Origin: Brucella pseudogrignonensis
GTDB taxonomy: Bacteria; Pseudomonadota; Alphaproteobacteria; Rhizobiales; Rhizobiaceae
Reading direction: 5' to 3'
Length of the DNA: 64,000 nucleotides
NCBI RefSeq assembly: GCF_002252525.1
Contig: NZ_NNRM01000039.1
Coordinates: 266,151 to 330,150 of the forward strand
The position numbers and the translations under genes were made by a program. This document shows positions 26,964 through 30,499 of the stretch, in pieces (positions within the stretch are counted from its first letter, which is position 1; each line of letters begins with the position of its first letter). The notes beneath the pieces were generated by a model that saw only the letters and a list, made by a program, of their open reading frames with translations, did not search any database and was not told the origin of the DNA.

Positions 26964-27247
26964 ATCAGGACTATTACTCAATTTGCTCCTCTCGACGTGC
27001 TCCCGTTAATTAGGCCATTCAGAACTGGAATTCCAGTTATGTTGAGGTGCACCCCGAATTTGTACCACGGAGAGCTGGAATTTTCCGGGTTTAAGGCTCA
27101 AAGCGGCGGGGATGCCGTTGAGCCATTCATAAGCGAAATCGGCACCTTATTGCCAATGGCGCTATGTGGCCGGAATTCGTTATAGATCCTATGCAAGCTC
27201 GCCGCGGAGCTTGATAATTTGCCTCCGCTTTTCCATGGAGGATGATC

Positions 27248-28396
27248 ATGAGCGCTGAACGTGTCAACGATTGTTATGTCGCCCTCGAACTCAGCCAACG
27301 CACATGGCTGATCGGCTTTCTTTTGCCCGGCACGGATAAGGTTCAGATAATGACGGTTGCCGGTGGTGACGCCGAAGCTCTTCTGTCGGCGCTCGGAAGG
27401 ATTGAAAGCCTGGCAGGAACTCGGTTGGCTGCAGAATGCACCATGGTGTCGATGCGGGTCTGCTACGAGGCCGGTTATGACGGCTTCTGGCTTGCCCGTT
27501 ATCTTATCGATCGCGGCATCGATACCACAATCCTGGACCCATCCAGCTTTCTGGTTTCGCGACGAGGCCGACGTGTGAAGACAGATCGCATCGATGTCGA
27601 AGCGATGGTGTTTACGCTGAAGGCGTATTTGCTCGGAGACAGGTCAGTTTGTCGACCAGTTCGGCTGCCCTCAGTCGCGGAAGAAGACGCGAAGCGTCTT
27701 TCTCGGGAACGCACGCAATTGAAGAGGGAGCGCACGCGGCACGTCAATCGCATCCGCGCCTTGCTCGTGCTTCACGGTATCCGCTCTGTTCCTGGTCTTT
27801 GGGGAGGACGCTGGAAGGAGGCACTTTCGAATATCCGGACCGGTGATGGCAGGGAATTAGGGCGGTTCATCTTCCGTGAGCTTTGCCGCCAGTTTGAACG
27901 GCTCGATCTCGTGCACTCGCAGCTCAAGAGCTTAGAGAAGGAGCGCATTCAGGCTTGCGAGACCGAAGGAGCCATCAACGACAGCGGGAAGATCAGGGTG
28001 CTGAAGCAGCTTGACGGCATCGGTGAAGTGGGTGCCACACAGTTGGTCGCCGAAGTGTACCATCGAACATTCAAAAACCGAAAGCATCTGGCCTCTTACC
28101 TAGGACTGTCACCCAGCCCCTATTCCAGTGGCGAGGTCCATCGGGATCAAGGCATCAGCAAAGCCGGAAACAAACAGGCTCGAGTGATGCTCGTCGAACT
28201 GGCGTGGTGCTGGCTTAAATACCAGCCACAGAGCGAACTGACGCGATGGTATCGCGCCCGCTTCTCGGGGCATGGAAGTCGGTCCGGGAAGGTCGGAATA
28301 GTCGCCTTGGCCCGCAAACTCGCAATAGCGTTCTGGCGGTTTATCGAAGATGGCGTAGTCCCTGAAGGGGCTACACTAGCAGTCGCCACCAAGTAA
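27248..28396 (+). CDS. IS110-family transposase (copy 1)
   Basis: A 382-aa DEDD-type recombinase. The start at 27248 is set by GGAGG six nt upstream. The RuvC-like domain shows an acidic residue in ALELS (Glu where most members have Asp), Glu in AAECTMVSM and the acidic pair in KTDRIDVEAM. The coiled-coil linker is followed by the C-terminal Tnp domain with GIGEVGATQLVAEV and the serine-bearing SPYSSGE motif. Such proteins use a bridge RNA to join target and donor DNA. The gene appears complete and the element recently mobile. Confidence 0.93.
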   Translation: MSAERVNDCYVALELSQRTWLIGFLLPGTDKVQIMTVAGGDAEALLSALGRIESLAGTRLAAECTMVSMRVCYEAGYDGFWLARYLIDRGIDTTILDPSSFLVSRRGRRVKTDRIDVEAMVFTLKAYLLGDRSVCRPVRLPSVAEEDAKRLSRERTQLKRERTRHVNRIRALLVLHGIRSVPGLWGGRWKEALSNIRTGDGRELGRFIFRELCRQFERLDLVHSQLKSLEKERIQACETEGAINDSGKIRVLKQLDGIGEVGATQLVAEVYHRTFKNRKHLASYLGLSPSPYSSGEVHRDQGISKAGNKQARVMLVELAWCWLKYQPQSELTRWYRARFSGHGSRSGKVGIVALARKLAIAFWRFIEDGVVPEGATLAVATK

Positions 28397-28399
28397 GGT

Positions 28400-28600
28400 T
28401 TGACTGCCGACGGGCAGTTGAAGGGGAAGCGCGGCTACCGTGCGTAGAGATGGACATCAGACGCCGAGTTGTAGTTTGGTAACGCGCTTCAAGCAGACGC
28501 CTGGCCACCATGAATCGGGATTATGGTCGGGAGCAATGGCTCCAGCCGAATACAAGTCGAGGCACCAGTGTGCCAGATCGCCAGACGACTGCGAATAACT
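28400..28600 (+). ncRNA. predicted bridge RNA (seekRNA) of IS110 copy 1
   Basis: First structured loop: stem GAAGCGCG..TACC (28426-28439) / GGTA.CGCGCTTC (28478-28490). Inside, GCGTAGAGA (28442-28450) is the exact complement of the target to the right of the core, and GTTGTAG (28468-28474) copies the left target GTTATAG with one wobble. Second structured loop: stem 28501-28508 / 28568-28576 with inner hairpin 28530-28543. It contains ATACAAG (28550-28556), identical to the element's right end plus core, and GGGAT (28517-28521), complementary with one wobble to the element's left end. RNA limits are approximate. Confidence 0.82.
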
Positions 28601-28821
28601 GGAGGAAAGCAATTTTGGGCAAGATGGAAGAAGGATTGACAAACACCGCTTCATACAAGTCTCTACGCCAATCCTCCATCTTAATGCGGGCGTCGTCAAG
28701 ACTCATGAACCAGTGGGCGTTCAGGCACTCGGCTCTGAACTTGCCATTGATGGGGGAGACGGTCCCGCTCCAACCCGGTTCGTCGTATGATGAATAGCCA
28801 ACTCAACCAGGAGCCATTGAT

Positions 28822-29850
28822 ATGATTGCCAGCACAATCGGCCTTGATCTGGCCAAGCATAACTTTCACGTCCATGCGGTGGATGCCGCGGGTTTAGTGA
28901 TTAAAACCGCTGCGCTCCGGCGAAGCGAGATGATCAAGTTCTTTCAGAGTGCTAAGCCATGCCTTGTTGGCATGGAAGCTTGCGCTACCGCACACTACTG
29001 GGCCCGCGAACTGACGAAGCTTGGCCACGAAGTCAAATTGATCCCGCCTTCGTACGTTAAGCCGTTTGTACGGCGCGGCGCTAAGAATGATGCTGCGGAC
29101 GCTGCAGCCATCTGCGAAGCCGTCCGTCGACCTGATATGCGTTTCGTTGCGATCAAATCGGAAGCCAACCAGGGCTTCCTGATGTTACATCGAGCTCGAG
29201 GTCTGCTGGTGAGACAACGGACCATGGCAGTATGTGCGATCCGCGCTCACCTTGCTGAGTTTGGAATTATCTTCGGTCAAGGTCGACAACGCATCGAGAC
29301 CATAATCCCTTCGATAGAGGAAGTCGCAGCGTCGTTACCAGAACATGCCCGGTTCGCATTGAACAGTCTTATGCGAACGGTCGGCGAGTTGAACACGCAG
29401 ATAGAGGGAATTGAGACGAAGCTGGCGGAAGTGGGCCGATCAGATCCAGTCTCCAATCTGCTATCTTCGATCCCAGGTGTCGGCCCAATCACGTCTACGG
29501 CTATCGCTGCGACCGTTCCGAACGCGAGAATGTTTCGCTCTGGTCGAGAGTTTGCCGCCTGGCTGGGCTTGACCCCACGTCAAAACTCCAGCGGTGGCAC
29601 AACTCGATTAGGAGGCATAACGAAGCAAGGAGATGCGTACCTGCGTCATCTGCTTGTGATCGGTGCCAGAAACATCGTTCGGTATCCAAAAGCGCGAGCG
29701 AAAGTCGGCGGAGCTTGGATCGACGCTTTGCTGCAACGACGGCGTCCTATGATTGTGGCCGTCGCCGTGGCCAACAAGCTTGCCCGGATCATCTGGGCGA
29801 TGATGACGAATGGAGAAATGTTCAGAGAGGCACACGTTAAGGCCGCATAA
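28822..29850 (+). CDS. IS110-family transposase (copy 2)
   Basis: A 342-aa complete recombinase. Catalytic residues of the RuvC-like domain are in GLDLAKHNF, GMEACATAHYW and the KNDAADAAA pair; the C-terminal domain has SIPGVGPITSTAIAA and the serine motif RQNSSGGTTRLGG. It ends with the conserved AVANKLARIIWAMM helix. Preceded by AGGAG about 9 nt before the ATG. Sequence class is the same as copy 3 and different from copy 1. Confidence 0.94.
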   Translation: MIASTIGLDLAKHNFHVHAVDAAGLVIKTAALRRSEMIKFFQSAKPCLVGMEACATAHYWARELTKLGHEVKLIPPSYVKPFVRRGAKNDAADAAAICEAVRRPDMRFVAIKSEANQGFLMLHRARGLLVRQRTMAVCAIRAHLAEFGIIFGQGRQRIETIIPSIEEVAASLPEHARFALNSLMRTVGELNTQIEGIETKLAEVGRSDPVSNLLSSIPGVGPITSTAIAATVPNARMFRSGREFAAWLGLTPRQNSSGGTTRLGGITKQGDAYLRHLLVIGARNIVRYPKARAKVGGAWIDALLQRRRPMIVAVAVANKLARIIWAMMTNGEMFREAHVKAA

Positions 29851-29899
29851 GGCCGCAACCCAATCCAGTTGGTGTAAGGTGCAGAAGCAACAGATGGTC

Positions 29900-30060
29900 A
29901 TCCAGCGGAGCTGAGGATCGAGCAAACCCGGAGAGCTTTAGGCGCCATTCAAGCGCGACCCGTTGATGAGGCCTCGATCCGCGTACTCCATCAGGGCCAG
30001 CGACCATTGTATCGGTCGCAGTTAAAGGCCGAATACATGAACGCACCCGAATGATGACCT
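29900..30060 (+). ncRNA. predicted bridge RNA (seekRNA) of IS110 copy 2
   Basis: A stem GGATCGAG (29915-29922) / CTCGATCC (29973-29980) encloses GAGAGCTT (29931-29938), the exact complement of the target right of the core, and GCCATT (29944-29949), identical to the left target. The next loop has CTCCATCA (29986-29993), complementary with one wobble to the element's left end including the core. It also has an inner hairpin GCGACC/GGTCGC (30000-30019) and ATACATGA (30033-30040), identical to the element's right end with core. Four matches in the same order as in copies 1 and 3. Confidence 0.85.
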
Positions 30061-30499
30061 GAACTTGCAGAAAGCCTCTTGCGCCCGCGGGGCCGTCTAT
30101 ACATGAAGCTCTCGATGTAGCTGTTATCTGTCGGCTTGCCGGGCCGGGAGAAGTCGAGCACCACCCCCTTATGGTAAGCCCATAGATCCAGGTCACGAGA
30201 GATAAATTCGCTGCCATTATCCACACGAATAACCGCAGGATAACCGACCTGACGACATATCCGTTCGAGGGTCTGCACCACATCCTCACCACGATAACTG
30301 AAGCGGGCATCAACTGCTGGCGAGAAGCGTGAGAATGTATCAACCACCGTCAGGATGCGGATCTTCCGTCCTGTCGCCAATTGATCATGGACAAAATCCA
30401 TTGCCCAAACATGGTTGGAATGGGTCGCATCTGTGCGATCAGCGCGAGGCTTCGCCTTCACCGCCGTAACGTGTTGCTACGATCAAGAAGTATGCCGAT

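Follow-up and report, generated by a model that had tools for sequence, protein, structure and literature searches.

Within a 64,000-nucleotide stretch of Brucella pseudogrignonensis DNA (the window, whose numbering is used below), an IS3 transposase gene is interrupted by an element of the IS110 family, here called copy 1, and the locus raises the question of what directs such an element to its site. We put the probability at about 0.93 that the right end of copy 1 encodes a bridge (seek) RNA guiding its IS110-family recombinase. This putative role is supported by what comparison showed, namely guide-target agreement, left-donor agreement, fold and position. The mechanism of the bridge RNA or seekRNA of IS110 and IS1111 elements is itself established in the available text of PMC11208160, PMC11208158 and PMC11187229.

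The element and its insertion site

Copy 1 occupies 27186-28659 of the forward strand, as delimited by the stretch retained in a copy elsewhere (L032) and by a natural empty site (L114), with the core dinucleotide AG marking the left border at 27184-27185 and the right border at 28658-28659. A left end of 56 nt (27186-27241), holding the right-donor sequence ATCCTATG, is followed on the same strand by a gene for a predicted RNA-guided recombinase of 384 amino acids (27242-28396) and by a non-coding right end (28397-28659); from stop codon to end the latter measures 263 nt, correcting the 261 nt given in an earlier note on this DNA. Fragments of an IS3 orfB gene lie on the reverse strand to the left (27043-27185) and right (28660-28750), the target codons reading WRKDYNEFRPH in a Rhizobium copy.

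That the interrupted IS3 gene would yield the pre-insertion target, as the earlier note held, was borne out by locating an empty site, the natural uninterrupted IS3 copy L114 on a plasmid of Rhizobium sp. SU303. Window 27043-27185 aligned with L114 1140-1282 and window 28658-28750 with 1281-1373; both flanks overlap on L114 by exactly two bases, the core AG, and the alignment showed insertion without duplication beyond this shared core. Within the genome of copy 1 itself, the search for such a site returned only a second IS3 left part, which carries a relic of a copy-1-like element (L132, on contig C38). The relic is 82% identical over window 27044-28031 and has the same left junction in another IS3 copy, and its right part was not found on searching; apart from this relic, copy 1 is the single full copy in its genome. 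Brucella tritici carries a copy nearly identical to it.

Inspection of 14 related loci extended the IS3 association. Neither end could be mapped in L091, and one or two junctions were readable in the other 13, of which 11 had window-like IS3-site flanks, judged by flank letters and by alignments running into the flank rather than by annotation. The exceptions were L032 and L066, in whose left flanks no IS3 reading frame was found. The same IS3 gene of the window also holds a second IS110-family element, of IS1111 type, at 28751-30103 (recombinase 28822-29850), 90 bp from copy 1; its junctions fall at the codons of the SYIESFNGKF motif in the L114 alignment.

The candidate guide RNA

The guide matches described in the earlier note were found in the window as it had read them. 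The putative right target guide (RTG), GCGTAGAGA at 28442-28450, matches without exception the reverse complement of top-strand 28660-28668, directly right of the AG core. The putative left target guide (LTG), GTTGTAG at 28468-28474 including the core AG, equals the left flank GTTATAG (27179-27185) save for one base, which pairs with the bottom strand as a G.T wobble. Both lie inside one target-binding loop (28426-28490), closed by an 8+4 bp stem (28426-28433/28483-28490 and 28436-28439/28478-28481), with a short inner hairpin (28452-28453/28464-28465) parting one guide from the other. Further on, GGGAT (28517-28521), the candidate right donor guide (RDG), pairs with ATCCT at the start of the element (27186-27190), one of the pairs being a wobble, and ATACAAG (28550-28556), the candidate left donor guide (LDG), is identical to its last seven bases (28653-28659). 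A second hairpin (28525-28547) separates the two donor guides, and a third, at 28561-28574 (helix 6 of the fold test), follows toward the 3' end of the RNA. All of these features are on the forward strand.

These matches exceed chance. Both target guides, in order and within 45 nt, appeared in 0 of 20,000 dinucleotide shuffles of 28397-28649; taken singly, the exact 9-mer arose in 29 shuffles, the 9-mer with wobble in 565 and the left guide with wobble in 923.

The fold was evaluated over 65 distinct sequences, in which two-sided changes occurred at 24 of 27 pairs. In an alignment that was fitted to the structure, two-sided-change cells numbered 369 as against 107.5 in shuffles, and 91.7% of the cells were paired as against 69.3% in shuffles and 31-47% in slid versions; sliding the partner by a single base brought pairing down to 36-47%. 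The stem of the target loop was also recovered in an alignment-free swap of halves among 16 elements, own halves averaging -19.1 kcal and swapped halves -15.0 kcal, with 0 of 20,000 permutations as low, the own partner being best in only 4 of the 16 rows. The donor-loop hairpin is supported by the fold test (helices 4 and 5) and did not appear in the swap test, where 16,513 of 20,000 permutations were as low and where the halves had been cut at a fixed place, a poor design. From 28 right ends in a plain MAFFT alignment, RNAalifold recovered almost no structure, probably because of the variable guides; the stem swap test and a covariance model with hand-read stems were used instead.

The covariance model, a check that the earlier note had named, was built from ten relatives with the window included. 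It placed the RNA at 28419-28584 (forward strand; E 4.7e-45, the window being part of the model) and nowhere else in the window, an interval that gives the extent of the model rather than true RNA ends. Matches were found in 69 of 99 sources, with 15 loci of the clade returning none, and in 0 of 15 controls (IS1111-type, IS621, ISEc45, ISSso6 and other IS110-type loci, and the empty IS3 site). At gathering thresholds Rfam gave no match within the window, nor did PADLOC. A long non-coding end with predicted target and donor guides, together with a predicted two-loop structure, is what copy 1 has in common with the bridge and seek RNAs. In a Novosphingobium metagenome-assembled genome (L043, 3642-5697), four guide-RNA copies, each with a recombinase 3' end, stand in tandem with a period of 629; this array is either an assembly artefact or real.

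How the RNA would be transcribed bears on whether the inserted copy is active. A -35-like box, TTGACA, lies at 28636-28641 on the forward strand, 18 nt from the right terminus. The form TTGAC[ACGT] was seen near the right end in 43 of 46 rows and at a distance of exactly 18 nt in 37 of these 46, counts to be read with the fact that the motif used to find right ends already included the box in a looser form. By analogy with other family members, for which a TTGAC-type box at the circle junction has been published, the box would sit at the circle junction and could serve as half of a promoter. A search of the left end for a -10 box gave weak candidates only, the best hexamers agreeing at 2-4 of 6 positions. 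It is conceivable, if rather unlikely, that the RNA is real and the inserted copy silent without a junction promoter, so that only relatives or the circle express it; the right-end TTGACA would indeed need the left end as its downstream half, and copy 1 has no full sister copy in its genome. Against this, of 58 measurable matches to the RNA, 50 start 22-57 nt downstream of the recombinase stop, so that read-through could make the RNA, and silence of the inserted copy does not compete with the guide reading itself.

The recombinase and its clade

The recombinase was assigned from profile matches to PF02371 (73.3 bits, cut-off 21.3), PF01548 (34.3, cut-off 29) and NF033542 (194.6, cut-off 140), from alignment with IS621 and from invariant columns in 30 rows. 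The catalytic positions are E16, E76, D115, D118, S296 and G297. At the first of these, 74 of 75 clade rows have E and the remaining one K, as compared with D in all 14 rows outside the clade (two of them the same gene); the other five positions agree across the clade. Instead of DEDD, then, the protein has E,E,D,D with Ser-Gly; this lowers its standing as a typical member and leaves the profile-based IS110-family assignment unaffected. For IS621, mutation of D11 is reported to have abolished recombination in the available text of PMC11208158.

It is improbable that copy 1 is an ordinary IS1111-group element with a right-end RNA and the top-strand guide first. Its short left end, long right end and guide order are those of IS1111, for which right-end RNA and reversed guide order are established in the available text of PMC11187229; the seekRNA elements treated there (ISEc11, ISPa11, ISKpn4 and ISPst6) likewise have the RNA downstream of the recombinase, a short left end and the top-strand match 5' of the bottom-strand match. 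The recombinase itself argues otherwise. In a tree of 38 recombinases the clade of the window (24 rows, ISRel9 included) and six IS1111-type rows (the second element of the window, IS4321, ISShdy1, ISShsp1 and two from the genome of the window) separate, each with support of 100/99, and IS621 has a long branch of unsure place, drawn beside IS1111 with 84/67. At 384 amino acids the protein is longer than the 330-350 given for IS1111 recombinases (PMC11187229, available text), and it has E where they have the first D. The subterminal inverted repeat is TATG only, 4 bp, and ranges over 3-9 bp in 46 rows, some reaching 7, as compared with 7-17 bp in IS1111 (PMC11208160, available text); in 18 rows the repeats averaged 6.0 for own ends and 4.3 for swapped ends. 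Nor does copy 1 have the left-end RNA and bottom-strand-first order of the IS621-like, narrow IS110 elements: its left end is 56 nt and its guide order is reversed. The tree, residue and repeat data therefore describe an IS110-family element that is bridge-RNA-like, shares RNA location and guide order with IS1111 and is not IS1111 by its recombinase; filing it under IS1111 was rejected on phylogeny.

The earlier note had presented guide RNA in the right end of an element of a different subgroup as novel, and the part that stands is right-end guides in a separate clade; right-end guide RNAs as such were already known for IS1111, and a downstream non-coding region is mentioned for some IS110-family members, in the available text of PMC11187229. 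What copy 1 adds is a large recombinase clade outside IS1111, one with the first catalytic D replaced by E, with short subterminal repeats and with an IS1111-like RNA position and guide order, and a donor loop that can be read, a difference from the IS1111 seekRNA elements. In the open-licence literature, figures and supplements aside, no guide reading was found for a right-end group other than IS1111, and open-licence papers yielded nothing on ISRel9 or on EEDD together with IS110.

Guides and targets across relatives

The guide reading was evaluated in relatives whose ends had been found by motif, without use of the target guides (left AT-N-C-Y-AT[GC]; right CAT...A[GA] behind TTGNY). From a start set of 82 loci (76 full-length and six added by hand), 47 rows were kept, the requirements being the presence of the three landmarks and 10 or more bases of right flank; loci without a recognisable end or anchor, or running off the contig, were dropped. 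Of these rows 44 are distinct, the same-locus pairs being L001/L002, L004/L040 and L011/L093. The search for the best pairing covered the whole RNA as far as 50 nt upstream of the donor-loop anchor. For the right flank it started at -97 to -107 from the anchor in 30 of 47 rows and elsewhere in 17, and for the left flank at -71 to -80 in 36 rows and elsewhere in 11. In several rows the fit of the right guide is incomplete, which counts against the guide reading. The targets differ among these relatives, e.g., GAAAG|CGGACAT (L052), TACAG|CCTGCAT (L014) and GGAAG|CGTTGCT (L060).

With the registers fixed after this 47-row scan, a permutation test was performed on 42 rows (40 distinct), four rows of unknown left flank and one duplicate having been dropped, by taking one row from each of 16 lumped target families. 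Own pairing was 99.0 of 112 for the right target, where the best of 100,000 permutations gave 90.0, and 97.5 for the left target, where the best gave 88.0; right, left or both together, 0 of 100,000 permutations matched it. The own RNA ranked first, ties included, in 11 of 16 families for the right target, 11 for the left and 14 for the two together, and with ties excluded in 11, 6 and 13, respectively.

A scan of all offsets, in which each of 18 targets was represented by a single row and from which L002, L032 and the four rows of unknown left flank were omitted, located the guides more closely. RTG pairing was 6.06 of 7 for own and 3.80 for swapped RNAs (2.26 above) at -101; LTG pairing without the core was 4.97 of 7 against 3.81 (1.17 above) at -79 to -74; and LDG pairing was 5.0 of 5 against 3.9 (1.10 above) at the anchor. 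These three peaks stand in this order and on strands as in bridge RNAs, and wrong-strand controls rose at most 0.48 above swapped. Near -29 the RDG gave 4.22 of 5 for own and 3.77 for swapped RNAs; because this peak of 0.45 is no larger than the largest wrong-strand peak, although its own wrong-strand control was 0.28, the RDG reading is only suggested. A plasmid locus of Rhizobium indigoferae (L113, RNA 2455-2610) has a 13-nt deletion that removes the RDG region of the donor loop from an otherwise conserved RNA.

Over five sequence types, all 42 rows have an LDG whose first six positions are those of the terminus, and in 36 rows the seventh agrees as well. This left-donor test is partly circular because the anchor is the LDG motif itself; the three positions left free are identical to the right terminus in every one of the 42 rows, the remaining ones being fixed by the search motifs. 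Position by position, with wobble counted as paired and the best register taken, pairing was 78-100% over the seven left bases, core included, and the first seven right bases, and beyond those seven bases on each side it was no better than swapped. A near relative, L034, has TG in its target where the window has TC, and T in its guide where the window has G. Relatives with other targets, multi-copy elements and structure covariation thus support the predicted guides.

It could be supposed instead that the matches are by-products, either captured pieces of target or chance likeness to IS3 codons, with protein-DNA contact picking the site, and guide and target are indeed hardly separable within the near relatives because nearly all of these use the same IS3 motif; this we consider very improbable, since distant relatives at unrelated targets have matching guides at the same places and on the same strands, and shuffles of the window's right end never produced the guide pair.

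Copies carrying the same guides

The expectation in the earlier note that guide loops would track their targets held across relatives and multi-copy elements and failed in part for L032, whose right side fits only partly. This copy is 99.3% identical to copy 1 with guides unchanged. Its left flank retains CGTTATAG, and its right flank has TCGCTTGTT where the guide calls for TCTCTACGC, pairing at 4 of the first 5 bases. As a same-guide copy at a differing site it counts in part against the guide reading, and we regard it as a partial exception that resembles some ISRel9-type copies.

The ISRel9-type set has nine copies, i.e., 8 of 61 records plus L125. With a common LTG, GCTTTAG, the left flank is GGCTTTAG in 9 of 9. 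The right flank begins CTT in 9 of 9 and CTTT in 7 of 9, the RTG being CTCAAAG in six (calling for CTTTGAG), CTCGAAG in two and CTCTAAG in one (L125). An identical right flank occurs in three copies, and the likeness of the left flanks extends past the guide, so that the sites may be related to each other and not all of them can be counted as independent. A sphingomonad group of nine rows, eight of them with an identical target loop, has the left flank GTAATAG in 7 of 9 and a right flank starting TC in 7 of 8 readable rows (L147 is without a readable right flank, and that of L045 is cut). From the constancy of left flanks and the variation of right flanks in same-guide copies, the left guide therefore looks strict and the right guide looser, a pattern with which L032 is consistent.

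Proposed mechanism and relation to known systems

By analogy we infer a circle intermediate, RNA binding, strand exchange and transcription for copy 1. Following the IS621 and IS1111 work, the recombinase would bind the right-end RNA. In the first loop the RTG would pair with the top strand right of the core, and the LTG with the core AG and the bases to its left on the bottom strand. The second loop would bind the excised circle at its RE-LE junction, the RDG pairing with the start of the left end and the LDG with the right-end terminus. The element would then recombine at AG, its target being a conserved site in the IS3 transposase gene (WRxDYNEFRPH codons).

In IS621, as described in the available text of PMC11208158, the guides run LTG-RTG and LDG-RDG; its first guide would pair with the half-site opposite the end that holds the RNA and its second with the half-site at the same end as the RNA, and in copy 1 the same relation would be mirrored. 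With target and donor turned through 180 degrees, the arrangements of IS621 and copy 1 would therefore be the same RNA-protein complex. If true, the reversed order would reflect the placement of gene and RNA on the element and need no new chemistry. We propose tentatively, with somewhat less than even confidence, that this abundant, mostly alphaproteobacterial EEDD lineage is a third RNA-guided branch beside IS1111 and the IS621-like elements, in which guide order follows the end that holds the RNA and not lineage. The clade makes testable whether guide order is set by RNA position or by recombinase lineage, and likewise the role of glutamate at the D11 position. It would also offer a natural set of RNA-guided recombinases with guides readable by eye, giving rules of target choice and candidate DNA-insertion tools straight from sequence.

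Among known elements, ISRel9 (from Rhizobium, named in plasmid records) shares the recombinase clade and RNA plan, with guides readable against its targets, and differs in a protein 40.6% identical and in its target, GGCTTTAG|CTT..., beside istB in some records. ISEc21, in the available text of PMC11187229, is likewise an IS110-family element targeting a conserved site inside IS3 transposase genes, but its RNA is upstream, its guide order is different and it uses another stretch of IS3 codons. IS621 (available text of PMC11208160 and PMC11208158) agrees with copy 1 in two internal loops for target and RE-LE donor, a core dinucleotide taking part in pairing, a catalytic Ser-Gly and the strand with which each guide pairs; it differs in an RNA located in the left end, in guide order (RTG-LTG and RDG-LDG in copy 1), and in having core CT and D11 where copy 1 has core AG and E16. 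Among 46 rows of relatives, seven (L033, L041, L042, L046, L055, L082 and L083, about five of them independent) have core AG on the left and AA on the right, the reverse arrangement being absent; such borders may come from an AA-core target resolved in one direction.
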